A DNA stretch of 23,912 nt, from IMG/VR virus record IMGVR_UViG_3300042898_001332, positions 1-23,912 of that record; one strand, given 5' to 3'. Each line of letters begins with the position of its first letter. The stretch's first letter is position 1. This DNA comes from a virus. Of this stretch, positions 3,321 to 23,139 are shown in pieces. Under the pieces are notes generated by a model. That model had not been told where the DNA came from. It did no database searches and saw only the letters and a program-made list of their open reading frames with translations. The position numbers and the translations under genes are program-made.

Positions 3321-3512
3321 TTACCAGTGTCTAATTGTGTTGGCTATAATAAAGCCACAAGTTATAACATGTATTATAACCCAAAATGTTTTAAAGAACA
3401 AGGCTATTCGGGCTTCTTGCAAAGTTAGTATCGGCACATCAGGACGATCGTGATCAGATTCGCCCATCAAGTGCCCGGTTGCCCGTGCCCAGATCTTTTC
3501 TAAACTATTCAT
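3321..3512 (-). CDS. Small single-span membrane protein upstream of nrdB
   Basis: 63 residues. The N-terminal half is soluble and charged (GESDHDRPDVPILTLQEAR); the C-terminal half is one hydrophobic segment, roughly residues 38-59 (FFKTFWVIIHVITCGFIIAN), ending in IRHW. No signal peptidase site is evident, so a single-pass inner membrane protein is expected. Small proteins of this layout next to nrdB are, as far as I recall, common in cyanophages and related T4-like phages, without known function. Its ATG overlaps the stop of the HNH gene (ATGA), so its translation may be coupled to that of the mobile gene. Function unknown. Confidence 0.75.
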   Translation of the reverse strand: MNSLEKIWARATGHLMGESDHDRPDVPILTLQEARIALFFKTFWVIIHVITCGFIIANTIRHW

Positions 3513-4201
3513 TTACATTTTATCCATTCTTCATCTTGAGTAGGAATCCATCCATGCCTAAAGTATTTTACCATATTCATAAACGGGCCTACTTCTTTTC
3601 CGTCATCTTTCCAGTTATAATTCTTATTCATACTCAATCCATATAACTTACAATATGATGGTTTATTATTATCAATCCATATATTGTAAATTTCATCTGC
3701 CCTAGACCAGATACCTTTAGTAACTACTGTTGCTCTTGGATGATTCCAAGGTTTAACTCCAGCGTTTGGATTTTTATCACCGCGCTTTGAGTCAGACATA
3801 GATTTCAATCCGGCTTCTGTAAACAATGATGTGTCAAAAGGTTTTCCAAATTTCCAATGTGCTTTGCCTTTTGGCTGATGTTTTCCAGGATTATTAGGTC
3901 CACACATATACTCAGAATATTGTCTCTTTAACCAACCGTATGCCTTATTGTTTCTTTTTACATTATTATTTGATGCTACCATAAACATAGCGGCTTTGAC
4001 AAGTCGTATATTATTAGGATGTATTTTAACTAACAGAAGATGACACAAATAATGTTCTTCTGGTGTCAGTGATACTAAGTTAGGTGCGTCATCTGTTCCT
4101 CCGAGACATCTCGGAACAATATGATGCTTTTCACTATATCCTTCTAATATTCTATTTTGTCCTCTCCTTACTAATGTATTGTATATTTTTTGATAATCCA
4201 T
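3509..4201 (-). CDS. HNH homing endonuclease between nrdA and nrdB
   Basis: 230 residues. The HNH motif is N-terminal: H26-H27 in EKHHIVPRCLGG, N41 in APNLVSL and H50 in PEEHYLCH. The rest is basic and Lys/Asn rich and includes KRGDKNPNAGVKPWNH, reminiscent of the DNA-binding modules of phage homing endonucleases. Such enzymes cut a related phage genome lacking the gene and so copy themselves into it. The gene is A+T rich by eye (lines 3901-4020 hold 38 G+C of 120 bases against 31 of 60 at 4801-4860 in nrdA). It sits between nrdA and nrdB, the place of mobE in T4. The ribosome site AGGAGA stands directly after a hairpin that also contains a late promoter. I see no intron; it is free-standing. 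Confidence 0.9.
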   Translation of the reverse strand: MDYQKIYNTLVRRGQNRILEGYSEKHHIVPRCLGGTDDAPNLVSLTPEEHYLCHLLLVKIHPNNIRLVKAAMFMVASNNNVKRNNKAYGWLKRQYSEYMCGPNNPGKHQPKGKAHWKFGKPFDTSLFTEAGLKSMSDSKRGDKNPNAGVKPWNHPRATVVTKGIWSRADEIYNIWIDNNKPSYCKLYGLSMNKNYNWKDDGKEVGPFMNMVKYFRHGWIPTQDEEWIKCK

Positions 4202-6585: not shown

Positions 6586-7011
6586 CTACTTAATATATTT
6601 TTGTATTTCTTCTTGGCTAACGCTGTGTCGGGCATTGGTTTGCCCTAGGTTGATATTTACGACATGTGACTGGTCCCAATTCAATATATATTTCTCATTG
6701 TCAATCAGGACTAAATTGTCATCACAACTCTCAATCAACACAGCATTTTGTATGTCTGCGCGATCTAGCAATGTTATAGTATACATTATTCCTAGTCCTC
6801 TTGCAAGACTACAGAACAAATTATCATCTAATAGTTGCCATGGATCAGGCCAACTTGTACGATCATCCCAATGCAAATGATATGGTATCCACGGAGCATC
6901 AAACCACCATTGGTTGATCAATTCTAGTGCTGGTTCTTTGGGAAGTTGGGCAGCTTGAGATCTCAAATCTGCCCACGAATTTAATCGTTCAGAAAATAAT
7001 TTATGCCACAT
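6586..7011 (-). CDS. Conserved phage protein of unknown function
   Basis: 141 residues, very rich in Trp (WWFDAPW, LHWDDRTSWPDPWQLL) with a short segment NLFCSLARGLGIMY carrying one Cys, followed by IDNEKYILNW and a polar tail. The arrangement of a Cys in a helix and later acidic and His residues faintly recalls papain or transglutaminase-like folds, but I cannot place a catalytic triad. The ATG overlaps the tail fibre stop by one base (TAATG) and the stop lies five bases from the nrdA start, so it bridges the tail fibre and RNR genes in one transcript. I do not recognise the family by name; no function is claimed. Confidence 0.8.
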   Translation of the reverse strand: MWHKLFSERLNSWADLRSQAAQLPKEPALELINQWWFDAPWIPYHLHWDDRTSWPDPWQLLDDNLFCSLARGLGIMYTITLLDRADIQNAVLIESCDDNLVLIDNEKYILNWDQSHVVNINLGQTNARHSVSQEEIQKYIK

Positions 7012-8726
7012 TAGGCTAGTTTGTATACAGAGTAATTCAAAGTGGCGGTGGTACCAGTGTTGGTCGTGTTGTATGACACTGTGACAACTCCACCAGTTTC
7101 TGATGTGATGAATGCCACACCTGGTGTGCTATTTTCATATCCAGTGTCATTGAAAACCAAATTGCCGCCTGTGCCATCAGTGCTGGCAACCACGGTGTAT
7201 GTTCCGGAACGAGTGTTAACACCTCGGGTGATTGTGTAGTTAAAGGCAAATGCTCGAGTTAGACTGGCATCAACTGTGAACAACACCGCTGTAGTATTAT
7301 TCAACAGAGTGGGTCTAAGGCCTGTTTGACGAGTAAAGGTTCCTAGTTGTAATTCTACTGCATTGTCAAGACCAATGCTGGCTGTGTTGTTGATGTCAAT
7401 TCGGCGTTGGCCTGTGCTTACAACCTGAGCCGTGGTGCGAGCAAACATGTCACCAAGGCTAACATTGTTGTCAGCATCAATTTCAATGATTGAACTCACA
7501 GGATATGCGGTGCCAAGGAATTGATTACCTACATCATAAAATATATTGTAGCCAGACACATTCAAACTCACTCCATCAATGACAATACCTTGAAAACAAA
7601 TGTTATCAAAGTTGTTGTGTGTTATTCTTATGCCTGTGGCACCGCCTGAAACCGGCGACGCTCCTCCAAGATAAATTCCTTGATACAAAGTATCAAACGA
7701 TGAATTGGTAATCACTGATGCGGCAATTTGTTCTTCAGTATTCATGCCCCAGGTGAATCCAGTGAAAGCACAGTTGTCAATGATGATATTTTTACATACC
7801 AAGCTGGGAGTGCTTGCCCAAGCAATGGCCACAGTATTGTCCGTTGATGTTGTCAAGTCAGCTGCCAACAGCGGACCAATTACATCAACATTGCGCAAGG
7901 TGCATCTTTCAGCATTTTCAATCAACACACCATCCATTATCAAATTGGCCTGAAAGCCCATGTTGTTAATTTCAACACACTGTGGTGGCAACGCACCATT
8001 GGTAGCAATATCAACTCCAATTTGTTGTAAACTATCAGCAGTACGAGCAATGTATGTTGGGGCAGATTCGATTGACCAATAGGCAGTGTCACTGATACTG
8101 GTGCCAATAGGCACAGGTGCCACAGCACGATAAAAGTTAGCCCCATTTTTAACCAGTGTTCCCTGTGGCCAGGCTGCCGCGTCAGACCAATTTTCCACAT
8201 AGAAATACAACACTGATGAATCATTGCCTTCACCGTAGAGTGATGCAAAAGGAGGAATAAGAATTGCGTCTGTTACGATGTACACGCCAGCAGGAAAGAA
8301 TAGACTTCTGCGTATTTGAGGGTTGGTATCTCTGCAGTACAACTGATACAGAGCACGATTAATAGCCGCGGTATCATCAGTGACGCCGTCACCCATGGCT
8401 CCAAAATCTGTGACCACTGCATAGCTGTCTAGTCTACTTTGTAAACTTTGTTGTACAGGATCGCCTGCTGTGGGGCCTGTTTGAACTGTATAGCCAGCAG
8501 CCTCGCCTTGATAAGTGTAAGCAGCCGAAACAGCAATAATGTCAGAAAATTCAGTTAATATTTCAGTATTGCCCACAACTGGAGCACCTTCTGCCAAGGT
8601 TCCGTTGCCAATGAACAGTCTTCGTTCATCTGTTGCCCAGCCTAGTTCTGCGCCGGCCAATGGGGCAGGTAGATCTACAGTCAACCCTTTTCGGTTGGTT
8701 ATTCTTGATATTTGTACAATTGCCAC
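7011..8726 (-). CDS. Tail fibre/tailspike-like protein with beta-helix (pectate lyase-like) domain
   Basis: 571 residues with a GTG start at 8726, chosen because AAGGAAT lies seven bases upstream and the N-terminus then reads MAIVQISRITNRKG, a typical virion-attachment start. Residues 20-60 (LGWATDERRLFIGNG) form the head-binding part common in marine phage fibres. Around residue 107 comes DFGAMGDGVTDDTAAIN, the signature of the pectate lyase 3/right-handed beta-helix family of phage depolymerases and receptor-binding proteins. It continues with regular strand turns (NNIIIDNCAF-like rungs) and a Thr-rich C-terminal domain. A YRAVAPVPIGTSISDTAYW insert resembles a carbohydrate-binding module. 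A CTAAATA late promoter lies upstream. Whether it degrades or only binds host polysaccharide is open. Confidence 0.88.
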   Translation of the reverse strand: MAIVQISRITNRKGLTVDLPAPLAGAELGWATDERRLFIGNGTLAEGAPVVGNTEILTEFSDIIAVSAAYTYQGEAAGYTVQTGPTAGDPVQQSLQSRLDSYAVVTDFGAMGDGVTDDTAAINRALYQLYCRDTNPQIRRSLFFPAGVYIVTDAILIPPFASLYGEGNDSSVLYFYVENWSDAAAWPQGTLVKNGANFYRAVAPVPIGTSISDTAYWSIESAPTYIARTADSLQQIGVDIATNGALPPQCVEINNMGFQANLIMDGVLIENAERCTLRNVDVIGPLLAADLTTSTDNTVAIAWASTPSLVCKNIIIDNCAFTGFTWGMNTEEQIAASVITNSSFDTLYQGIYLGGASPVSGGATGIRITHNNFDNICFQGIVIDGVSLNVSGYNIFYDVGNQFLGTAYPVSSIIEIDADNNVSLGDMFARTTAQVVSTGQRRIDINNTASIGLDNAVELQLGTFTRQTGLRPTLLNNTTAVLFTVDASLTRAFAFNYTITRGVNTRSGTYTVVASTDGTGGNLVFNDTGYENSTPGVAFITSETGGVVTVSYNTTNTGTTATLNYSVYKLA

Positions 8727-9462: not shown

Positions 9463-10453
9463 AATGTGAATTAGGTGATTGTTTGTAATAAGTGTCTGCT
9501 ATTTGATTATACACTGTTTTATTGTATTCTGCAATTAAATTGATTTCTTTTATCACCTGATCTAATTGTTGTTTGGGTAACTGATCTAATCTTGAGATCT
9601 CCGTACAGATCATGTCAAATCGTTTGTGCATGTTTGGCTCTTGATCGTAACCTTCATTGATCCAGGGTGCAAAGGTTCGAAATCCCATGGTGCGTAACTT
9701 TGCCAATTGACCCACTGTGCCCATCAATATAAAAGGTTTGCCAGTGTACAGGCATCGAGTTGTTTTTTCTGTAAACCATCCATAATCAAAAATATTATTT
9801 TCAATGCTAATTTCAATTTGAAATTTGGTCCATAATTGACCATAACTGTTTAATGCATCGCTAACATGCACATGCGGTTGAAAATTATAATAATCAAATG
9901 TTCTATTAGATTCTTGTCGATTGTCTAGCCAGGCCAATTGTGCAGAATATTGTTCTTCAAATCCAACCAAATCAACATGATTCCTAGTAGGATGAAATAT
10001 TACAAAAGATGGGCTGGTCAGTTGTGTTTCTAGATAGTAGGCCAGTAGAAATCGATGTAAAGTGTATCTTCCATATATTCCACCAAACAAAGATGCGGTA
10101 GGATCTACATTCCAACTTGGCTGAGACAAAAATTTTCTTGTGCCTTTAAAAGATCTTGATGGATAGGTATCTACTGTTACATTAGGGTTGATATAGGGAG
10201 GAGTTGAGTCTACTACAAACACTCGCAATTGATCCTGACGCAGATTATAAGTAGTCTGCACCTGCTCAATGATTTTATTAAATCCTGCATGATCAATGGG
10301 GGCTCCGTCAGGCATGTTAAACTGTACACTATCAAAAGTTAATTTGTGCAAGGTATCCAACAGCAAATCAATTTTATAGATATATCCGTCATGTTTTATA
10401 AAAGTATGACCAGCAATGTACGCTACGCCATCTTTTACCTCAACACTATTCAT
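9455..10453 (-). CDS. Glycosyltransferase-like conserved phage protein
   Basis: 332 residues. The C-terminal half has the run IEISIENNIFDYGWFTEKT, then CLYTGKPFILMG, LAKLRTMGFRTF and INEGYDQEPN. This pattern (acidic residue, TEK, PFI, GF+TF, ESYD-like) resembles the nucleotide-sugar binding end of GT10/fucosyltransferase-type enzymes and is frequent in phage proteins labelled glycosyltransferase. The N-terminal half (RVFVVDSTPPYIN) is less clear. It starts in an ATGA overlap with iscA, so its translation is coupled to the Fe-S genes, and ends overlapping the nuclease gene. Function from pattern only; donor and acceptor unknown. Confidence 0.8.
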   Translation of the reverse strand: MNSVEVKDGVAYIAGHTFIKHDGYIYKIDLLLDTLHKLTFDSVQFNMPDGAPIDHAGFNKIIEQVQTTYNLRQDQLRVFVVDSTPPYINPNVTVDTYPSRSFKGTRKFLSQPSWNVDPTASLFGGIYGRYTLHRFLLAYYLETQLTSPSFVIFHPTRNHVDLVGFEEQYSAQLAWLDNRQESNRTFDYYNFQPHVHVSDALNSYGQLWTKFQIEISIENNIFDYGWFTEKTTRCLYTGKPFILMGTVGQLAKLRTMGFRTFAPWINEGYDQEPNMHKRFDMICTEISRLDQLPKQQLDQVIKEINLIAEYNKTVYNQIADTYYKQSPNSHFV

Positions 10454-10770
10454 ACCCTAAAACTTTCTCCGCAGCCGCATCTGTCTCTTTCGTTTGGATT
10501 TTTAAATTCAAATCCTTCATTGAGACCTTGGCGAACATAATCTATTGTTGTGCCGTTTAAATAAACACAGCTTTTTGGATCAACAAAAATCTTACAATCA
10601 TCGCAATCAATACATTGATCAGTATCTAGAGGATTGTCCACAAACTCTAGTACATATGCTAGGCCACTGCATCCAGTGGTTTTGACACCAACTCTAATGC
10701 CTTGAGTTTGTGTTCGAATCTGTAGAGTTTTTTGTATTTTCTTGGCAGCTGATTCGGTTAAAAAGATCAT
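10450..10770 (-). CDS. iscA: IscA-type Fe-S cluster carrier
   Basis: 106 residues, the normal length for the A-type carriers IscA/ErpA/SufA. The three ligand cysteines are C34 (TTGCSG), C98 and C100 (RCGCGESF), and GLNEGFEFKNPN matches IscA more closely than SufA. It would take [2Fe-2S] or [4Fe-4S] clusters from the scaffold and pass them to client proteins in the cytoplasm. Unusual for the family are four additional cysteines, C53, C56, C59 and C68, in the segment DQCIDCDDCKIF. The ATG overlaps the iscU stop (ATGA), so the two are translationally coupled. Local G+C is low (20 of 60 bases at 10501-10560), unlike iscU. Confidence 0.92.
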   Translation of the reverse strand: MIFLTESAAKKIQKTLQIRTQTQGIRVGVKTTGCSGLAYVLEFVDNPLDTDQCIDCDDCKIFVDPKSCVYLNGTTIDYVRQGLNEGFEFKNPNERDRCGCGESFRV

Positions 10771-11147
10771 GATTTTGCATGTTTATTCTTGTAATCTGCT
10801 ACCGCAGCCTTGATAGCGTCTTCTGCTAGAATCGAACAATGGATCTTAACTGGCGGGAGGGCAAGCTCTTCAGCAATCTCCGAATTCTTAATCGCTCCCG
10901 CGGCGTCGAGCGACATTCCTTTAACCATTTCGGTGATGAGCGAGCTTGAAGCAATCGCTGAGCCGCAACCGTAAGTCTTAAATTTTGCGTCCGTAATAAT
11001 GCCATTTTCTACTTTGATTTGAAGTTTCATCACATCGCCGCAAGCAGGTGCGCCAACCATGCCCGTGCCAACTGTGTCATCTACTTCAAGTTTTCCTACA
11101 TTGCGAGGATTCTCGTAATGATCAATAACCTGCTGACTGTAAGCCAT
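10767..11147 (-). CDS. iscU: IscU Fe-S cluster scaffold
   Basis: 126 residues, full length. Cluster ligands are present: C36 and D38 (GAPACGDV), C61 (TYGCGSA), H103 and C104 (KIHCSIL). The LPPVK motif (97-101), recognised by the HscA chaperone of the host, is intact, so this protein could plug into the host IscS/HscAB machinery. The sequence is close to proteobacterial IscU. A good ribosome site (AAAGGAAAC) precedes the ATG. The gene is richer in G+C than its neighbours (33 of 60 bases at 10861-10920), which suggests more recent transfer from a host. It is followed directly by iscA; IscS, HscA, HscB and ferredoxin are not in the window. Confidence 0.95.
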   Translation of the reverse strand: MAYSQQVIDHYENPRNVGKLEVDDTVGTGMVGAPACGDVMKLQIKVENGIITDAKFKTYGCGSAIASSSLITEMVKGMSLDAAGAIKNSEIAEELALPPVKIHCSILAEDAIKAAVADYKNKHAKS

Positions 11148-12289: not shown

Positions 12290-12633
12290 TTTGCCAGGCC
12301 GCGTTTCATTGCGGATTTGGCCATTCTATCTACTGTGGCTTGCGCCTGTGGGACTGACATCTTGGAAGGACCAATATCGGCACCTTTGTAAGTGATCATG
12401 TTTGATTGTGCATCCAATGGCTCGAGCACACTGCTCAGTGGTGGTGATCCAACTATTTGTGCTAGGTTTTGTTTGGTAATATTGATTCCTAAACTTTGAG
12501 CTAGATTGATGAAAGCGTCTTGGCTGATTTGTTTGGTGGCATCGGTGTCATCAGCACGACCATGTAGAAATTGAACAAGACCTAAGAGTTTGTTCGGGTC
12601 TTCCCCTTGATCCTCAAACTCAACAAGGCGCAT
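12286..12633 (-). CDS. Conserved virion-associated protein, unknown
   Basis: 115 residues beginning MRLVEFEDQGEDP and then helical: KLLGLVQFLHGRADDTD, DAFINLAQSLGINIT, a Pro-rich turn VGSPPLSSVLEPL and a basic C-terminal helix (TVDRMAKSAMKRGLAK). Similar small proteins with this start occur in aquatic T4-like phages, to my recollection, without a known function. The start overlaps the stop of the 12633-13577 gene (TAATG). It shares the short acidic/Leu N-terminal style with its neighbours (MKLQELAAP, MQIHEITLK), hinting at a common role or maturation in the particle. No function is claimed. Confidence 0.75.
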   Translation of the reverse strand: MRLVEFEDQGEDPNKLLGLVQFLHGRADDTDATKQISQDAFINLAQSLGINITKQNLAQIVGSPPLSSVLEPLDAQSNMITYKGADIGPSKMSVPQAQATVDRMAKSAMKRGLAK

Positions 12634-13577
12634 TATCTACGAGCTCTGCCCAATGAAGCAGGCGGTGCTGGACTAATTTCATCAGCGGCAGCTAGTTCGG
12701 CACCAGCTTCGGCGCCTAGTTCGGCACCAACTTCTGCACCCGGAGCACCACCGGCCGCGGCACCAATATCGGCACCAATGTCTGCACCTAAATCAGCTCC
12801 GGCTTGTTCTGGAGGAACTCCAGGGATTTGTGGAGTTTGTCCAGTAACAACTCCTAATGCGGCATCAAGTTGTTGCTTGGAGCCTTGTAGATTTTGCACA
12901 AGACCAGCCAAGGCGGCTGATGCATCAGTGTTAAATTGTTGAGCTTGGTCAATGCCCACTTGATTCTTGATTGAATCTACTAGAGCTGGAAGTTCTTTGA
13001 ATTGTAATTCAGTGACATCTTCCAACATGCTTTGCATTTTATCAACCATGTCTTGAGCTGCCAGCACAACCTGAGCTTGCTGAACTTCGGACTCTTTCAA
13101 GTAACGGTAAGCGTTACGCAAACGGCTTTCGGTCTTGGCCAGTGCCGCGCCTGCTACCATTTTTTGTTCTTGCGGATTGAGACTCTGACCATTGGCAGCT
13201 TTTTGCAATGCGGATTTTAGTGCAGGATCTTTTGTTTGTGCAACCACAGCAGCGGCTTGCTTTTTGGCAGCTTCTGGATCAGCAACTGCGGCAGCGCCTG
13301 GGGCTGTACCTGGAGCGCCAGGCATGGTCGTTTCTTTAAGACGACTGACCAGTGCCTGTTCCAGCATTACCATTTTTAAGTACGCAGGATTTTGTTCACT
13401 GCGGTGGAAGCTAGGCTGACGGCGGGATTCTTTCAATGCTGTTTGAATACGACCGAGCAGTGTCTTTGCTTGTCCAGCAGTTAACTGGTCAAAGTGAAGG
13501 TTTGAACCAAAGTAACTTTCGAATACTTTGGATATTTGTTTAGATGGCTTAGGAGCCGCTAGTTCTTGCAGTTTCAT
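12633..13577 (-). CDS. Virion structural or head-core protein, Ala/Gly-rich C-terminus
   Basis: 314 residues. The N-terminal part is helical and carries LKESRRQPSFHRSEQNPAYL and MVMLEQALVSRL, which I associate with a conserved structural protein family of aquatic T4-like phages. The middle is helical with many Gln and Lys, likely coiled coil (VQQAQVVLAAQDMVDKMQ). The C-terminal 50 residues are a low-complexity repeat of GAE/GAD units. It has a late promoter (CTAAATA) and AGAGGATT ribosome site. An acidic helical protein with this composition would fit a prohead core or scaffold-like role, but this is inference. Confidence 0.78.
   Translation of the reverse strand: MKLQELAAPKPSKQISKVFESYFGSNLHFDQLTAGQAKTLLGRIQTALKESRRQPSFHRSEQNPAYLKMVMLEQALVSRLKETTMPGAPGTAPGAAAVADPEAAKKQAAAVVAQTKDPALKSALQKAANGQSLNPQEQKMVAGAALAKTESRLRNAYRYLKESEVQQAQVVLAAQDMVDKMQSMLEDVTELQFKELPALVDSIKNQVGIDQAQQFNTDASAALAGLVQNLQGSKQQLDAALGVVTGQTPQIPGVPPEQAGADLGADIGADIGAAAGGAPGAEVGAELGAEAGAELAAADEISPAPPASLGRARR
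12688..12800 (-). repeat. Degenerate GAE/GAD coding repeat
   Basis: Imperfect units near GGTGCCGA(A/T) on the minus strand encode alternating Gly-Ala-acidic steps (GADLGADIGADIG, then GAEVGAELGAEAGAEL) at the C-terminus of the 12633-13577 protein. The repeat is likely to vary in length between relatives. Confidence 0.7.
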
Positions 13578-14025
13578 TATTGAATCCTCTAATTTGCATG
13601 TATTTAGCCATTTTTATACATTTTTCAAGTTCAGCTGTGACTGACGCTTGTTGTTCTATCTTTGGCTGTATTTTAGTATTTACTATTTCGTAAAACTCTT
13701 GAGTTTTACCACGGTCGGCCTGCGCTTTGCGACATTGTATATCTGCCGACAATGTGCTTTGCTTACGGTCTAGCACTAGAATTTGTTGTGCTAGGTTAAT
13801 CTGATTTTGCTTGTCGGCCACACACCAGCTGACTGCTGATCGTTTGCTGCCAAAATGATAAATTGTATCATCCAATGTGGTAACTTTGAACCCCACATCC
13901 GCTGGTTCAATTTGATACCTCCCAAACACAATATACCCATCGTGTTCATTGGGCACAATCAACTGATCTATATTGCGGCGAATTTCTTTTTCGGCCCAGC
14001 GTTCTAATTTTTGTTGTTGGGTCAT
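13549..14025 (-). CDS. Conserved phage protein with coiled coil, unknown
   Basis: 158 residues from the ATG at 14025, chosen because it overlaps the previous stop as ATGA; a longer frame to 14091 would run through the membrane segment region of the upstream gene. The N-terminal part (KLERWAEKEIRRNIDQL, then DGYIVFGRYQI) has a small beta domain, followed by a His/Lys region FGSKRSAVSWCVADK and a long helix NLAQQILVLDRKQSTL that continues to the C-terminus and probably forms a coiled coil. It overlaps the next gene by 29 bases. I do not recognise a function; the position suggests a structural or assembly role. Confidence 0.75.
   Translation of the reverse strand: MTQQQKLERWAEKEIRRNIDQLIVPNEHDGYIVFGRYQIEPADVGFKVTTLDDTIYHFGSKRSAVSWCVADKQNQINLAQQILVLDRKQSTLSADIQCRKAQADRGKTQEFYEIVNTKIQPKIEQQASVTAELEKCIKMAKYMQIRGFNNETARTSGS
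13601..13607 (-). promoter_or_regulatory. Late promoter motif (CTAAATA)
   Basis: CTAAATA on the minus strand, 23 bases upstream of the ATG at 13577 and inside the end of the preceding gene. The ribosome site AGAGGATT follows it at normal distance. Confidence 0.6.
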
Positions 14026-14279
14026 TTGATGTATTGTATTATCAACCAACCGCACAGCGCAACTAATGTTCCAATTATGCCCACGCCCCAATTGATCAAT
14101 CGATCATTGTTTTTTGTGGCCATGGTTTCGACTGTGCTTTTAACACTCGAAATGGCCACGACTAATTCTTCACATTTTTGTTCTACACTATCTAGCTTGG
14201 TTTCTAGAAATTTATAACGCTCAGCACATAACTCCACATGCGCTTCGAGACTTTTCTTTTCAATTTCGGTTGTATCCAC
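14022..14279 (-). CDS. Small coiled-coil protein with C-terminal membrane anchor, holin-accessory-like
   Basis: 85 residues with a GTG start at 14279 supported by AAGGAT eight bases upstream. Residues 1-60 are a charged heptad-like helix (KSLEAHVELCAERYKFLE, KLDSVEQKCEEL); residues 63-84 form one membrane span (WGVGIIGTLVALCGWLIIQYI). The layout, coil then C-terminal span, matches XhlA-type hemolysin/holin accessory proteins and small phage membrane proteins generally. A late promoter ATAAATA lies 21 bases upstream. A lysis role is possible but not shown; no lysozyme is visible in this window. Confidence 0.72.
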   Translation of the reverse strand: MDTTEIEKKSLEAHVELCAERYKFLETKLDSVEQKCEELVVAISSVKSTVETMATKNNDRLINWGVGIIGTLVALCGWLIIQYIK

Positions 14280-14788: not shown

Positions 14789-15175
14789 TTAAGATGCAGC
14801 TAGTTTGAAACCAACATTGGAAGCACTGTTCAACTGGTAACCAGTGTAAGTGATGTTGGCAGCAGCCAAGAACACAGCGGCGTTGGCAAATGCACCTGTT
14901 GGGTACACAGCAAAGCTCAATGTTGTGCCGTCAACTTGGTACATTGCAACTGTAGCTGTTTGTTGAATAGCGTTGATAACATTAGCAACATACTCTTGAA
15001 CACCTTGTTGAGAAACAACAGTAGTGTTAGCAACAGCGCCGAAGAAGTCTAATTTCGGACCAGCTGGTTGAACTGGAGTACCAGCAGTAGAGGCTGATGG
15101 AGAAACTGGACCGTTTTGTACATCAAGTGCAAATACTGGTTGTGCATCACCATTCGAAGGGGTATAATAAGCCAT
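14789..15175 (-). CDS. Small, probably abundant virion protein
   Basis: 128 residues starting MAYYTPSNGDAQPVFALDVQ. Ala, Val, Thr, Gln and Asn rich with almost no Cys or charged residues: a Ser/Pro-rich linker (GPVSPSASTAGTPVQPAG), a helix EYVANVINAIQQTATVAMYQ, and strands (LSFAVYPTGAF, NITYTGYQL). It looks like a small capsid, decoration or tail protein. It has its own late promoter (GTAAATA), a strong ribosome site (AAAGGAAAT) and a strong terminator, making it a single-gene unit, as expected for a protein made in many copies. No enzyme motif. Exact place in the particle unknown. Confidence 0.8.
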   Translation of the reverse strand: MAYYTPSNGDAQPVFALDVQNGPVSPSASTAGTPVQPAGPKLDFFGAVANTTVVSQQGVQEYVANVINAIQQTATVAMYQVDGTTLSFAVYPTGAFANAAVFLAAANITYTGYQLNSASNVGFKLAAS

Positions 15176-17223: not shown

Positions 17224-17898
17224 TTATTTCTGACCCATTTGTCTATTTTGGAATTGTACTTCGGCCGCTTTGTTTAATTTTTGTATTGAGACTGGATCAA
17301 TTACTTCTTCATTGTCTGGTCCGCGCCATTTACGATCTGGGAAAGTGTAAATCCAGTTTACACCTGTTTTGTCTTTAATTACAATAGGTTTAGTTGTTGT
17401 GGTGGCAGCAGGTTTGGCTATAGTAGAGTTAGTTGCCACCGGAGTGGTAGCGCCTTGTCCGGACAACGGTGGTGCTGTAGAAGCAGGTGCTACAGGCGCA
17501 GGTGTGCTTGTTGGAGTCGTTGTGGCTGTCGGAGTCGTTGTGGCTGTCGGAGGAGACACTTTATCTAATGCATCAATCATCTGTTGTGAAACGGGTTTGC
17601 CTGCTGGAAAACTAATCCACTGGCCTGTGCCATTTTTACGCTGGAACTGTTGATTTTTCCATTGAACGGTAATCGGCGAATTATCAATAATTTGAAATTG
17701 TTGTAAGAATTTACTTCGTGGTACAGTCGCGGCAGCGGCAGAGGCAGCGGCAGTCTCAGGCGAGTTGGCTGTTATGGAGTCTGGACTAATTCCAGTTTTA
17801 GATGCCGCTGCCTTTATAGCTCGGGCAGCTAAATTATTACCTATATTTTTTAACACACCTTCGGCCACTGGCTTGAGTGTAATTTCATGAATCTGCAT
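17224..17898 (-). CDS. Virion-type protein with Pro/Thr-rich linker
   Basis: 224 residues. The start MQIHEITLKPVAEG resembles the N-termini of its neighbours. An Ala-rich region (AAASAAAATVPRSK) precedes a small domain (FQIIDNSPITVQWKN, GQWISFPAGKP). Then comes a linker of Pro/Thr/Ala repeats encoded by two exact 18-base copies, and a C-terminal domain with GVNWIYTFPDRKWRGPDNEEV. The two small domains look related, each with a W and a GxW/KW turn, so they may be a duplicated module joined by the linker. It overlaps the upstream gene by 14 bases. Function unknown. Confidence 0.75.
   Translation of the reverse strand: MQIHEITLKPVAEGVLKNIGNNLAARAIKAAASKTGISPDSITANSPETAAASAAAATVPRSKFLQQFQIIDNSPITVQWKNQQFQRKNGTGQWISFPAGKPVSQQMIDALDKVSPPTATTTPTATTTPTSTPAPVAPASTAPPLSGQGATTPVATNSTIAKPAATTTTKPIVIKDKTGVNWIYTFPDRKWRGPDNEEVIDPVSIQKLNKAAEVQFQNRQMGQK
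17513..17548 (-). repeat. Two tandem 18-bp copies coding for a Pro/Thr linker
   Basis: The 18-base unit ggagtcgttgtggctgtc (plus strand) occurs twice without mismatch. On the minus strand it codes for TATTTP-type units of the linker in the 17224-17898 protein. In-frame units of this kind can expand or contract without breaking the gene. Confidence 0.85.
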
Positions 17899-18133
17899 TG
17901 GTTCTCCTGACTGACCTTGAAAACTTACTGGGATCTTTTGTGCGGATTGCGTTGAGTAATTTTCGTGTGAGGTTTTCTGCCTGCTCAGGCGAAAACTCTG
18001 CTTCTATTTGTTCCAGCAATCTTGAGGCACTGGTAATAATACTGGCGGCCCTGTTTTCGATTATGATACGTTGATCTCGCTCCACATACATGGAGTCTAA
18101 TTCTTCGAGAATACTTTTTGTTTTCTTTTGCAT
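17885..18133 (-). CDS. Small helical phage protein, unknown
   Basis: 82 residues, nearly all helix: KSILEELDSMYVERDQRIII, then ASIITSASRLLEQIEAEF, then EQAENLTRKLLNAI and a basic tail (KFSRSVRRTNADS). I recall close relatives in other T4-like aquatic phages, always unnamed. It is the first gene of the leftward structural block, with a double late promoter and AAAGG ribosome site, and its end overlaps the next gene by 14 bases. A structural or chaperone role is likely from position only. Confidence 0.78.
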   Translation of the reverse strand: MQKKTKSILEELDSMYVERDQRIIIENRAASIITSASRLLEQIEAEFSPEQAENLTRKLLNAIRTKDPSKFSRSVRRTNADS

Positions 18134-18152: not shown

Positions 18153-18163
18153 TATTTATTTAA
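18153..18163 (-). promoter_or_regulatory. Double late promoter motif (TTAAATAAATA)
   Basis: Two overlapping NTAAATA motifs on the minus strand, 19 bases upstream of the ATG at 18133, with the AAAGG ribosome site between. Expected start of the leftward structural transcript. Confidence 0.55.
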
Positions 18164-18196: not shown

Positions 18197-19246
18197 ATGA
18201 ACAGTTATTTTTGCGTATTGCCCTTTTATGGTTACGAAATTCCACATAATTCTTACGAAAACATCCATTGTTGTAGACTAGCACCTGGTACTGATATTGC
18301 TATTATACAGGATTCCATCCACAACAAGCAACGGAATACGGCATGCAACACCTGCTGGAAGTTGGAAGATGCTGGATTACCCAGCGAACGGCAACTGCAC
18401 AATCAAGCATTTGATTTTTACCTGGATCGTGATCTAGACAAAATAGAACAAGATACCATTGATGGCCTGCACAGTCCCCAAATTGTCAAGTTAGCCACCA
18501 GCAACTTGTGCAATGGCACATGTGTCACCTGTGACAGTGGCAGTAGCAGTGCATGGGCCGCATTAGAAGGCAAAAAGATACAGTATCAAGTGATGCCCAC
18601 AGATCAACTGGATAAAATTAACTGGGCAAAAACTCGTCAACTGTCATTAGTAGGCGGAGAGCCATTGCTGGAAAGAGTCAACTTTCAGATACTTCAACGC
18701 CTGATTGATCTGAGCAACACCAGTTGTTTTGTATCTGTTGTTACCAATGGATCATGCGAGTTAAATCCGCAACAACTTGATGTGTTGGCGCAATTTCCAA
18801 ACCTGAATATTTGTGTCAGTATAGATGGCGTTGGCCCACGATTTGAATACATGCGGTATCCACTGAAATGGTCTTTGCTGGAACAAAATTTAAAACAGTT
18901 CAAACAAATTGCTCGATATCTTAGTGTAAGCTGTATGATATCAAATTTGAATATTGCTTACTATACAGAAATGATTGATTTTTTTAAGCAACATCAACTG
19001 AAATATTTGTGCAAACAGATAGATCATCCTGACTACTTTTCTCCAGGAAATCTATCTCCTGCTGCCCAACAAACGGTGTTAGAACTTAATCCCAGATACC
19101 ATGATGAAATTCAAGGATTTTTTAATACTGGTCGTTATTCACCTGAGCTGTTTGCACAATGTCAAACTGAAATTGCAAGACAGGATCAATTAAAAAAGAT
19201 CAACATTGTTGACTATGCGCCTGTGAATTTTGTTACCAGTATCTAG
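18197..19246 (+). CDS. Radical SAM protein with N-terminal auxiliary cysteines
   Basis: 349 residues. The radical SAM cluster motif is C105-C109-C112 (SNLCNGTCVTC, CX3CX2C), followed by LSLVGGEPLLE (SAM-binding GGE), VVTNGSCEL and ICVSIDGVG, the usual order of strands. The N-terminus holds another set, C6, C25-C26 and C50/C53 (HCCRLAPG, ACNTCWKLEDAG), a pattern known from twitch/SPASM-type enzymes that bind an extra Fe-S cluster. The enzyme would cleave SAM to a 5'-deoxyadenosyl radical and modify an unknown substrate. It is the only rightward gene here and converges on a second radical SAM gene, with 14 bases of overlap at the 3' ends. There is no clear ribosome site. Confidence 0.9.
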   Translation: MNSYFCVLPFYGYEIPHNSYENIHCCRLAPGTDIAIIQDSIHNKQRNTACNTCWKLEDAGLPSERQLHNQAFDFYLDRDLDKIEQDTIDGLHSPQIVKLATSNLCNGTCVTCDSGSSSAWAALEGKKIQYQVMPTDQLDKINWAKTRQLSLVGGEPLLERVNFQILQRLIDLSNTSCFVSVVTNGSCELNPQQLDVLAQFPNLNICVSIDGVGPRFEYMRYPLKWSLLEQNLKQFKQIARYLSVSCMISNLNIAYYTEMIDFFKQHQLKYLCKQIDHPDYFSPGNLSPAAQQTVLELNPRYHDEIQGFFNTGRYSPELFAQCQTEIARQDQLKKINIVDYAPVNFVTSI

Positions 19247-20345
19247 CATAAAATTCAGCCACTTCAGGAAAAGTGTTTTGGAAACTTTGATTTCTAATCT
19301 GATCAAACTGTTTGATGTGTGCTATTAACTGGTGTATTTGTTCAGGGTTCTCTTTCCAATTGCCAGGAATTAGATTTTGATACACACTTGATTGCATTGC
19401 ATCCACATATTCCTGTGTGCAATTGCCTAATCGTTGAATACCAAATGCCAAGTGGCGAGTGTGGTTTACAACATCACCTTCTCTGTTGGTTATAAAGTTT
19501 TCTTTAAGCCAATATTCTAATTCGTTGATATAAAACAAATTGTATGTGCTTACGGTTTCTTCAACTAGAAACATAACATTGCTAGGAACTGTATCTCTTA
19601 GATGCAACATATTATCAATTACCTTGCTCCAGGTGGCTGGCCAACGCAAGTACTCAAATCGTGCTCCGATTCCATCAAGACTTATGTGCAATTTGACCAA
19701 TTTTACTCGATCAATTAAATCATAGTTACGAGGATGAATTGGTTGTGTGCCATTTGTTTGAAAACACAAGGTAAGTTTTTGTTTGGCGTTAGGAACATTC
19801 TCCACTAACCATTTGACTACATCCCAGTGTGTCTGCCCCAGCAATGTTTCGCCACCGCAGAAAACCAACATCTGCAGATTACTTAGATCCAATTGCTCAA
19901 GTGCAGTGATAATCTCATTGTACTGTTTGGGAGCAAACACAGGTTGATCCCATTGACCATTGTCTTTAAGATGCTTTTGCCAAAAAGTACTGTATTTTGG
20001 ACTACAAGTTCTACATGCTAAATTACAACTAATGTCAAACATTAAATCAATTCTAGCAGGGCCTGTTGGGCAGTCAGGAACCACTAGTCCATCATTCATG
20101 CCCAAACGAAAACTAATGTTCCTTGTGCTTTCTATATTTTTGCAGTTTTCACAACCAGGGTCCCATTTGTTTGCCTGATTTATTTTTCGTAAAGGCTCAA
20201 AGCCAGGATCATTCCAGAAATTGGTTCGTGTGTCTATTGGAATTTTTGAATTTCGCAGGCAACAATGTTGTGCTGTTGGTTCCTGGTCTTTTAAAGATAA
20301 TTCTAATCCACCATGAATCATGGAACAATAAACACTTTTATTCAT
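19233..20345 (-). CDS. Radical SAM protein, paralogue of the 18197-19246 gene
   Basis: 370 residues. CX3CX2C at C107-C111-C114 (SCNLACRTC), then LVFCGGETLLG, CFQTNGTQPI and LHISLDGIGARFEYLRWP. The N-terminal auxiliary set is C7, C28-C29 and C65/C68 (AQHCCLRNS, GCENCKNIE), laid out as in the convergent neighbour, which also shares the RFEYxRxP segment after SxDGxG. So the two are paralogues that have diverged in their C-terminal halves. The ATG follows the helicase stop by one base (AGGTTGAT ribosome site), which ties this gene to the replication transcript. Substrate unknown. Confidence 0.9.
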   Translation of the reverse strand: MNKSVYCSMIHGGLELSLKDQEPTAQHCCLRNSKIPIDTRTNFWNDPGFEPLRKINQANKWDPGCENCKNIESTRNISFRLGMNDGLVVPDCPTGPARIDLMFDISCNLACRTCSPKYSTFWQKHLKDNGQWDQPVFAPKQYNEIITALEQLDLSNLQMLVFCGGETLLGQTHWDVVKWLVENVPNAKQKLTLCFQTNGTQPIHPRNYDLIDRVKLVKLHISLDGIGARFEYLRWPATWSKVIDNMLHLRDTVPSNVMFLVEETVSTYNLFYINELEYWLKENFITNREGDVVNHTRHLAFGIQRLGNCTQEYVDAMQSSVYQNLIPGNWKENPEQIHQLIAHIKQFDQIRNQSFQNTFPEVAEFYARYW

Positions 20346-20346
20346 A

Positions 20347-21783
20347 TCAACCTGTTTTGATCTTGCCCAGCAATTGTTTTAGTTTGGCGCTTTGTACATC
20401 ACCGTCTACTTTGGCTGGTTGTTCCCACGCAGGAGTTCCAGTGGCTTTTTCCCATTTGGTAGAATTACCTTGGACTTCATCAGCAGCCTTGATTTGGCTT
20501 TTGGCCTTGATTGAGTCCATGATTGAACTTTGTGGTCGGTTGTGGCCTGCTTGGTCACCACCTTCATCAGTAATGCGCATTGTTTCAATGTTATACTCCA
20601 AATCAATTTTTTGACCAACGCCGGTCGAGCTTCGAGATTTCATACATTGTATCTGATACTTGCCACGCTCTTTCATGGCACGACTTGTAAAGATACCAAA
20701 CACATTGTCTGCTGTGTTAATTTTACTGATACCACCTGAAATGTGGCTGTGATCAAATTCAATTTCTTCCACAGCACTACGATTCAACTGTGAAGCTGTG
20801 ACCATTAACACTCCGAGCTCTTTGGCCAAGTTACGCAGTTCTTCTGACACATACTTGTCTTTGACAAACAAGTCGTTGGGGCTGACTTTGGCACTTACAG
20901 GCATCAGCAAGTCCAAGTAGTCAATCATCATAAAGTCTACTTTGATCCCTGTTTGGATCTGTACTTCTTTGATATAACTACGGATATCGTTGATATTGCT
21001 TTGTGCCGGCAAGGCTTTTACACGATACTGTCCTGACTTCTTGGCAACCAGTTTAACTTTGAGTTCTGTTGTGTCAATGTCTTTGCGTATGTCTTTGGTT
21101 GACATGTTGGTCAACATGGCGTCTGTACGCAAACTAGTAAGCTCTTCTGAAAGTTCTAGTGTAATGTAAACGCCACTGAGACCTTGTTGCAACCAGTTCA
21201 GAGCAATGTTCATCATGACCAGTGACTTGCCTGAGCCTGATCCACCTGCAAAGATGTTTAGTTCACCTCTACTGAAGCCGCCATACAACAGTCGATCCAG
21301 TTGAGTCCAGCCTGTGCTGACTTGTCCGCCTGAGTTAAAATACTTGTTGATACGACCACTAGGATCTGCAAAATAGTCTGTGCCCATGTCCTTAGTAAGT
21401 GATATTTGTACTGCATCTTTGATTAACTTTTCAACTGGATCATACTCGCCTTTTTCAAGCAAGTCTGCGGCTTTGAGAATTGCTCGCTCAAGTTCTTGCC
21501 GCTTGGTAAATGATTCAAACTCTTGCATAAACCAATCATAGTGTCCTTCATTCAAGTCAGGTACAGTTTGTAATGTTATATTGCATGCGGCCAAAATTTG
21601 GGTACGATCTGGCAGAGTCTTGTACTTGTCGCTGTGTTCTTTGATAAATTCTGCGGCCTTGCGTAGACTCCGATCAAAGTTTTCTGGGTTGTAGATATTT
21701 TGAATGCGCACATAGCTAGATGCGTCTTCTAACATCATTTCAAGAAACAAGCGTTGGACTTCAAGTCCGTATTCTTTTAACAA
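20347..21783 (-). CDS. Replicative DNA helicase, T4 gp41-like (DnaB family)
   Basis: 478 residues. The N-terminal part is helical (DnaB N-domain like). The RecA core has Walker A at 180-187 (GGSGSGKS), catalytic E210 (ITLELSEE), Walker B MMIDYLDLL (D288), a sensor ASQLNRS and the HISGG segment with the Arg finger region MKSRSST. This is the 5'-3' hexameric helicase that unwinds DNA at the phage fork with the primase. The start is TTG at 21783: AAAAAGGAAT lies seven to ten bases upstream and the next in-frame Met (residue 16) would cut the N-domain. It overlaps the SGNH gene by seven bases. Low-complexity tail after residue 430. Confidence 0.93.
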   Translation of the reverse strand: MLKEYGLEVQRLFLEMMLEDASSYVRIQNIYNPENFDRSLRKAAEFIKEHSDKYKTLPDRTQILAACNITLQTVPDLNEGHYDWFMQEFESFTKRQELERAILKAADLLEKGEYDPVEKLIKDAVQISLTKDMGTDYFADPSGRINKYFNSGGQVSTGWTQLDRLLYGGFSRGELNIFAGGSGSGKSLVMMNIALNWLQQGLSGVYITLELSEELTSLRTDAMLTNMSTKDIRKDIDTTELKVKLVAKKSGQYRVKALPAQSNINDIRSYIKEVQIQTGIKVDFMMIDYLDLLMPVSAKVSPNDLFVKDKYVSEELRNLAKELGVLMVTASQLNRSAVEEIEFDHSHISGGISKINTADNVFGIFTSRAMKERGKYQIQCMKSRSSTGVGQKIDLEYNIETMRITDEGGDQAGHNRPQSSIMDSIKAKSQIKAADEVQGNSTKWEKATGTPAWEQPAKVDGDVQSAKLKQLLGKIKTG

Positions 21784-22502
21784 AATCCATTCCTTTTTAA
21801 AGTTGGTAACACAGATACATCAAAATAGTGACCATTGCCTGCAGGTCCGTGATGGCCTTGCCATTCAAATGGATCAAAGTCTGCTGGTTTATGGATGTTT
21901 AAGTTTGCACTATAATATGTGTTGTCGTGTAATATATACTTGGGGTTGGCAAGAGCATCAGGTAATACAAAGGCATACGGTGCCCAGTTTGTGTCTTTGA
22001 GAAATGGAACACTTAGATTTGTCACAATGTACTTGGCTTTTTTTGACTCCAGCCAAGTAGACAACAAAAATAATGTGTTTAATGCTTGCACTTCAGTCCA
22101 AGAACTATTTTCATAAATTACTAGGTCTTTAATGTCTCGCACTGGCATATTTACTAATCCAGTATGACAATCAATCTGAACCAACTCACTTTGCCAAGTA
22201 TTAGTGTCAATATGTGTTGCATTATGCCTGGTATCTTTGAAATTGTCAAATACTGTGAGTCGTAACAGTGGAGGAATTCCAATTATAAAAAAATCATTTT
22301 CCCAATCATACTGACCTTGAAGGCCAATCAACATATGACATATACTTGTAAGACAGTTACCTGGCCAAGAACAATTAACAATAGACTTGGCACCAATGGC
22401 CGCCGCGGTCAATCCCCAAAAGCTATCTTTAGATTCAACACAGAAATTTGGAGTGGTGAAACTATCTCCAAACACCCAGAGTTTATTATATTGTTTGGTC
22501 AT
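21777..22502 (-). CDS. SGNH/GDSL hydrolase-like protein
   Basis: 241 residues. N-terminal VFGDSFTTPNF is the GDSx block with S14 as nucleophile; NCSWPGNCLTS fits the Gly block, FFIIGIPPLLR the third strand, and GHHGPAGNGHYF near the C-terminus fits the His block. Members are esterases or acyl-group hydrolases acting on sugars or lipids. There is no signal peptide, so it acts in the cytoplasm or in the particle. It lies between sulfotransferase and helicase with overlaps of 17 and 7 bases, and has AAGGAATC as ribosome site. Substrate unknown; the third block lacks the usual Asn, so activity is not certain. Confidence 0.8.
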   Translation of the reverse strand: MTKQYNKLWVFGDSFTTPNFCVESKDSFWGLTAAAIGAKSIVNCSWPGNCLTSICHMLIGLQGQYDWENDFFIIGIPPLLRLTVFDNFKDTRHNATHIDTNTWQSELVQIDCHTGLVNMPVRDIKDLVIYENSSWTEVQALNTLFLLSTWLESKKAKYIVTNLSVPFLKDTNWAPYAFVLPDALANPKYILHDNTYYSANLNIHKPADFDPFEWQGHHGPAGNGHYFDVSVLPTLKRNGFC

Positions 22503-23139
22503 TTATCATTGATTCCTTGATTCGAGTTTCTACTTCTTTGTAATTGGTACACAATCTGCTGTATTCAAGTTTGGGATCATGCAATGCACCTTTTGATTCT
22601 GAAATGCAAAACTTGATATTGTCTATGTTTTGTTCAACATTGTTTATGTAACTTTCATAATGCACCACACTGTATGGCGTATTGGTCTTGTCTAAAAACT
22701 GTTTGGATTCAATATATTTTTTATAGGCTCTTATGCAATCATTTAAAAAATTCATATCGCACTCAAACAACACTGGGTCAGGATATACCTCAGTTGCTGA
22801 GTAATGAAATCGTTGTGTTACCTTTTGTGCATAGTATAAACTAATACAGCAATCAGTCAAATTGCTTCGCTCTGTAAGCACAACTAAATCAAATTTTCCA
22901 TGATCTATTAGTCTTTTAAATTTAAAAAGTGGAAGATACACCAATTGTGTAGTCAAGTACTTGACCACGCAGTTGTTTTGATTGCTGACCCAGTGGTATG
23001 GATTTTTAGGGGACTCACCGAGTTCTGGTTCCACTAGATTATCTAATCCATACAAGTGTGACAATTGTTGTTGCAATACTGTTGTGCCTGACCTAGGCAT
23101 TCCAAATACTAAGATTTTTTTAATTTCTTTTCCAACCAT
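22486..23139 (-). CDS. Sulfotransferase family protein
   Basis: 217 residues. VFGMPRSGTTVLQQQL (residues 11-26) is the 5'-phosphosulfate loop of PAPS-dependent sulfotransferases and VVLTERSNLTDCCISLYYA the 3'-phosphate segment with R and S. The length is a bit under the usual 250-300. It would transfer sulfate to a carbohydrate or tyrosine. The start overlaps the primase end by 31 bases, so the gene is packed into the replication operon between primase and helicase. It has a weaker relative at 11669-12289. Acceptor unknown. Confidence 0.88.
   Translation of the reverse strand: MVGKEIKKILVFGMPRSGTTVLQQQLSHLYGLDNLVEPELGESPKNPYHWVSNQNNCVVKYLTTQLVYLPLFKFKRLIDHGKFDLVVLTERSNLTDCCISLYYAQKVTQRFHYSATEVYPDPVLFECDMNFLNDCIRAYKKYIESKQFLDKTNTPYSVVHYESYINNVEQNIDNIKFCISESKGALHDPKLEYSRLCTNYKEVETRIKESMINDQTI

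Follow-up and report, generated by a model that had tools for sequence, protein, structure and literature searches.

The window analysed here, a virus record of 23,912 bases, is T4-like by its DnaB-type helicase, primase, ribonucleotide reductase and virion genes. It carries two genes for twitch-type radical SAM proteins, referred to here as A and B, whose positions are given in Table 1 together with those of the neighbouring features. As the original prediction had stated, the two genes are convergent and overlap at their 3′ ends; both reading frames were confirmed in the sequence, as were their stop codons (TAG of A at 19244-19246, and TAA of B at 19233-19235 on the minus strand). The gene list also bears out the view that A alone is rightward in the window, all other genes being leftward.

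Table 1. Features of the A/B locus and related genes of the window (positions are those of the window).
Feature	Position	Strand	Remarks
Gene A	18197..19246	+	349 aa, twitch-type radical SAM enzyme, opposite in orientation to all its neighbours, predicted to be late
Gene B	19233..20345	-	370 aa, twitch-type radical SAM enzyme, last gene after the helicase
Convergent 3′-end overlap of A and B, 14 nt	19233..19246		From sequence
TAAATA, late-promoter core of T4 type, 5 nt upstream of A's start codon	18186..18191	+	Conserved in A relatives
TAAATAAATA, late-promoter core(s) before the divergent virion gene 17885-18133	18153..18162	-	Core before 57/65 relatives
Virion structural protein, 82 aa (g17885), divergent from A	17885..18133	-	phrog_11854, head and packaging, E 3.7e-14
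DnaB/gp41-type replicative helicase, gene directly upstream of B	20347..21783	-	phrog_19, E 1e-72; DnaB_C, E 2e-21
SGNH-hydrolase-like protein	21777..22502	-	Motif only: N-terminal GDS and GHHG..GN block, conserved in five relatives
Sulfotransferase-like protein	22486..23139	-	Sulfotransfer_1, 22.0 bits, exactly at the cut-off of 22
IscU-type Fe-S scaffold	10767..11147	-	NifU_N, E 7.9e-52
A-type Fe-S carrier (IscA/ErpA-like)	10450..10770	-	Fe-S_biosyn, E 2.5e-20

Every scored A relative that converges on a gene in the B position overlaps that gene, by 14-47 nt, and the convergent overlapping arrangement is therefore not a matter of chance. Neither a sigma-70 promoter nor an intrinsic terminator was found at the A/B junction beyond chance expectation. 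The C-terminus of B is mostly RFL, RYL or RFW, regardless of the presence of A; this likeness of the final residues makes the overlap look like tight packing, and a functional antisense role of the overlap was rejected on the same grounds.

The two proteins fall into one radical SAM subfamily, NF033640 (N_Twi_rSAM), with whole-protein scores of 177.8 bits (A) and 178.6 bits (B), both above the curated NCBIfam cut-off of 170 bits; the PF04055 radical SAM scores of the pair are 30.6 and 34.4 bits (cut-off of 29.5). The cysteine layout and GGE motif noted in the original prediction are present in both of them: (i) in A, C6, CC25-26, C50xxC53, C105xxxC109xxC112, GGE and SIDGVGPRFEYMRYP, and (ii) in B, C7, CC28-29, C65xxC68, C107xxxC111xxC114, GGE and SLDGIGARFEYLRWP. 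This layout and these motifs agree with those of diverse viral members of NF033640, and in 19 such proteins, A and B included, the four N-terminal auxiliary cysteines (C, C, CxxC) and the CX3CX2C motif are invariant. The cluster cysteines have been kept by the close relatives of both proteins: C6, C25, C26, C50, C53, C105, C109 and C112 are invariant in the A clade (29 sequences), as are C7, C28, C65, C68, C107, C111 and C114 in the B clade (34 sequences). A and B differ from other NF033640 proteins in forming phage-only clades with C-terminal regions of their own, and the match of A spans only positions 55-339 of the 398 in the model. BLASTP aligned A and B with each other over 192 aa at 25% identity (E 6e-16); the similarity spans the radical SAM core, and from the divergence of their C-terminal thirds the two would act on different substrates. 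We found no characterised member of NF033640.

Structure prediction gave confident AF2 models (pLDDT of 91.6 for A and 93.4 for B), and Foldseek searches with these models returned a radical SAM barrel in both cases. The closest solved structures included those of SuiB, anSME, SkfB, BlsE and viperin-like enzymes, with AprD4 also among the fold matches; the radical SAM enzymes nearest in fold act on peptides, proteins, sugars or nucleotides. At the level of these models, the fold matches confirm the radical SAM core and do not choose a substrate. SuiB, anSME and other SPASM/twitch maturases, to which the whole-chain TM-scores (by query length) are about 0.34-0.44, contain a further cluster besides the core fold of radical SAM enzymes, as predicted for A and B. 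In these maturases the auxiliary-cluster domain comes after the core, whereas the auxiliary cysteines of A and B precede it. Neither protein gave a SPASM match, which sets both apart from the SPASM peptide maturases. A nearby small substrate peptide, for which the original prediction had suggested a search, was also looked for: neither the 63-nt gap before A nor the junction of B with the helicase contains a small peptide ORF, and no precursor gene adjoins either enzyme.

Relatives of A were found at 35 viral loci, and those of B at at least 99. Among the INPHARED phages no relative of B was detected, and the sole relative of A, in Vibrio phages K566/K567, is only 20% identical. The position of B is highly regular, its start lying no more than 10 nt from the stop of a DnaB-type helicase gene in 80 of the 89 loci. 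A is flanked on one side by the virion gene g17885 and on the other by B or directly by the helicase gene; it is inverted (convergent) in 29 of the 35 scored sequences, with a single change of state on the tree, and six relatives lie in tandem behind the helicase. Where A faces the helicase directly, the two genes overlap by 11-18 nt or are 71 or 176 nt apart.

At the B loci with enough flanking sequence A is present in 15 cases out of 47 and absent in 32, and in the phages lacking A its slot is either empty (15-85 nt) or filled. Most of the filled slots that were read contain an inverted gene encoding 305-593 aa with a conserved N-terminus (MTSQINPNNIDG.YPVAG...NNTQGFRDNF). This gene is preceded by a late-promoter core, as is A, and it usually overlaps the stop codon of B by a few nucleotides; the C-terminal part of its product matches unannotated phage proteins only. 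From this architecture, it looks like a fibre or adhesin gene. Such an inverted late-core gene was seen between B and g17885 in eight contigs (L042, L043, L045, L046, L051, L072, L080 and L113). The other filled slots are occupied by SGNH-like genes or by different ones, in some cases on the strand of B.

The gap upstream of A holds a promoter-like element, in keeping with the proposal that this gene has a promoter region of its own. In 20 of the 24 loci the hexamer TAAATA is found 4-8 nt upstream of the start codon of A, as against 0.37 expected and a maximum of 3 in 500 resamplings. Three of the four A loci devoid of the core comprise two tandem copies and one copy with unplaced neighbours. 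Both tandem copies tested are without the core, from which it follows that late timing is not essential to the function of A. The same core precedes the virion gene g17885 in 57 of 65 cases (median distance of 20 nt), g14789 in all 20 (41 nt) and g12633 in 17 of 18 (23 nt); before the DnaB helicase it was found in 0/66 cases and before B-type genes in 4/76. In the window itself, TAAATA also occurs 18-43 nt upstream of the starts of genes 14789-15175, 14022-14279, 12633-13577, 7011-8726 and 3509-4201, and these cores should be useful for mapping the late regulon of this phage group.

The late promoter, with the core TAAATA, has been given as TATAAATA for T4 and NATAAATA for S-PM2, and the motif has been reported for T4, KVP40 and cyanophages (PMC2984593). 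As in T4 and S-PM2, the core lies upstream of virion genes, and here of A as well; it differs from the late promoters of these phages in lying 4-8 nt from the ATG of A instead of about 17-43 nt, which implies an almost leaderless mRNA. In T4, late transcription starts about 5-6 nt after the promoter octamer. With this geometry the transcript of A would begin at or beside the start codon, that is, on or within approximately 3 nt of the ATG; the core is a 6-mer, and the leaderlessness of A rests on the T4 promoter geometry. The promoter sequence thus predicts late expression of A from an almost leaderless mRNA, and the place of B in the helicase operon predicts that B is made together with the helicase. 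The suggestion that the two enzymes may be made at different times has in this way gained support from the sequence. We found no earlier description of the inverted late slot of A and the helicase-linked B as a regulatory arrangement.

The original prediction also took the pair for an old duplication with inversion. In trees with bacterial homologues (from Bacteroidota, Bdellovibrionota, Elusimicrobia and others) A and B formed separate phage-only clades, each with 100% or nearly full support. No bacterial donor of either gene was evident in the sampled genomes, which came from a single scan with an alignment of array-type copies as the query, a search that may miss bacterial kin closer to A or B. 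The phage-only composition of both clades led us to reject a recent bacterial donor, and among the sampled genomes there was no sign that the two genes had been acquired separately from different bacterial families.

Descent of A and B from a single gene, duplicated and inverted at this site, would accord with their homology, with the full cysteine layout common to both and with their tail-to-tail position. Moreover, the distances of A and B are correlated among the loci in which they co-occur (Mantel r 0.61, p 0.004), which indicates that where both genes occur they have mostly travelled together. However, the closest kin of B are the B-position proteins of other phages (B2) and then copy C, a third copy of the family often found across the helicase from B (SH-aLRT of 94 and 88), and constraining A and B to one clade cost 34 log units (p-AU 0.037, a mildly significant result obtained with weak deep branches). 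There are loci with A but without B, in which the inverted A converges straight on the helicase, and there are the B loci without A, in which the inverted slot is empty or holds an unrelated gene. A local inverted duplication was rejected on these grounds, namely clade structure, B loci lacking A, and convergence of A on the helicase; A and B are thus probably not such a pair, and we regard their origin by an old event of this kind at this site as quite improbable. The sequence comparisons indicate instead that they are old, separate lineages within the phage expansion of NF033640.

This expansion can be considerable, and large contigs contain multiple family copies; one of 288 kb, for example, gave 13 matches and another of 212 kb gave 12, some of which are weak. 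In phage contigs (L035/L119 and L118) and in a Bacteriovoracaceae genome (L140), five to eight divergent genes for twitch-type radical SAM proteins form arrays in which the head-to-tail orientation prevails. Radical SAM genes approximately 48-50% identical to the phage copies were also found in four contigs (L135-L138) of MAGs labelled Flavobacterium, Pelagibacter, Verrucomicrobia and Betaproteobacteria, which are possibly misbinned phage sequences. A and B could be viewed as generic, uncoordinated mobile cargo, their overlap and orientation being packing accidents of a gene-dense phage. The variable occupancy of the slot (A, a fibre-like gene, other genes or nothing) and a B tail that is not shaped by the overlap are compatible with such a view. 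It is nevertheless unlikely, because the cluster cysteines and clade-specific residues are invariant over a large divergence, and the placement of B and A's promoter core have likewise been kept across deep divergence.

Besides the IscU-type scaffold and the A-type carrier, the window encodes a glutaredoxin, and an A-type Fe-S carrier was present in 7 of the 10 larger contigs tested. The T4-like ocean phage TARA_ERS488813_N000010, described by Nishimura et al. (2017), similarly combines an A-type carrier and glutaredoxin with radical SAM genes, 12 in number, and other T4-like genomes encode IscU and/or the carrier with two to seven further Fe-S-related genes (PMC5332604). The general phenomenon, that is, the combination of Fe-S and radical SAM genes, is therefore already known; the passages of that paper considered here make no mention of the subfamily or the promoter element, nor of the place of B by the helicase or the inverted late slot in which A lies. 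In another contig (L056, 15132-17095) iscU and the A-type carrier gene flank a gene for a twitch-type radical SAM protein, all with touching ends, and this order ties the phage genes for Fe-S assembly directly to phage radical SAM enzymes.

Enzymes of the radical SAM superfamily cleave SAM to generate a 5′-deoxyadenosyl radical, which modifies the substrate. By analogy, A and B would each bind a SAM-cleaving [4Fe-4S] cluster at CX3CX2C and a single auxiliary cluster held by the four N-terminal cysteines, and would use the 5′-deoxyadenosyl radical to modify their substrates; the clusters may be supplied by the phage IscU, A-type carrier and glutaredoxin. We consider it reasonably probable, on the whole, that A and B represent separate NF033640 lineages with different tasks. 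A would be transcribed almost leaderless from its own T4-type late promoter in the inverted slot, made late together with the virion proteins, and would modify a virion component or a surface glycan; B would be read with the replicative helicase and act earlier, on a different substrate. For A itself, the most likely role is to modify a virion component or a glycan of the surface at a late stage of infection. More specifically, T4-like phages may have an inverted late slot by the helicase whose alternative occupants are a radical SAM enzyme and a fibre-like virion gene, with a late promoter giving the enzyme an almost leaderless mRNA; the enzyme would then be a dedicated late modifier of the virion surface, fed by phage Fe-S assembly proteins. 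We regard this version as tentative and rather doubtful. DNA hypermodification was also considered, and rejected, as no gene supporting it was seen in the window.

It is also conceivable, with a probability that falls short of even, that both enzymes modify glycans or nucleotide sugars (those of the host surface or of virion glycans) and not proteins. SGNH/GDSL genes are the commonest neighbours of the bacterial relatives (19/158 near genes versus 2/80 distant genes of the same contig set; Fisher p 0.009), SGNH-like and sulfotransferase-like genes lie upstream of the helicase in the window, the phage arrays include carbamoyltransferase, GT25, mannose-6-phosphate isomerase and FkbM genes, and the sugar-acting BlsE and AprD4 are among the fold matches. 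On the other hand, the top fold matches (SuiB, anSME and SkfB) are mostly modifiers of peptides or proteins, and the SGNH gene of the window was assigned by motif alone, the attempt to assign it by profile having failed (no Pfam or PDB match for 21777-22502). The SGNH/GDSL, sulfotransferase-like and sugar-enzyme neighbours point to surface or glycan chemistry, though gene neighbourhood is an indirect kind of evidence, and the fold matches point equally to peptides. SGNH-like proteins with an N-terminal GDS or GDG, encoded near helicase and twitch radical SAM genes, were noticed in the window (21777-22502) and in four other contigs (L083, L093, L099 and L101); further SGNH-like proteins occur in L106 (6642-7370) and L112 (10864-11520), and those that were scanned are invisible to Pfam.

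Among environmental T4-like phages, proteins of the twitch radical SAM type are widespread, reaching about a dozen per genome, and we found no function assigned to them. A and B belong to a known family and have a conserved regulatory arrangement, of which the late core before A is new here. The separation of the two by lineage and predicted timing replaces a vague "auxiliary gene" label with testable claims, which place A in the late programme and B in the replication operon. Should A act on virions, this would be a modification of virus particles by radical chemistry, and it would help to explain the presence of Fe-S assembly genes in these phages.
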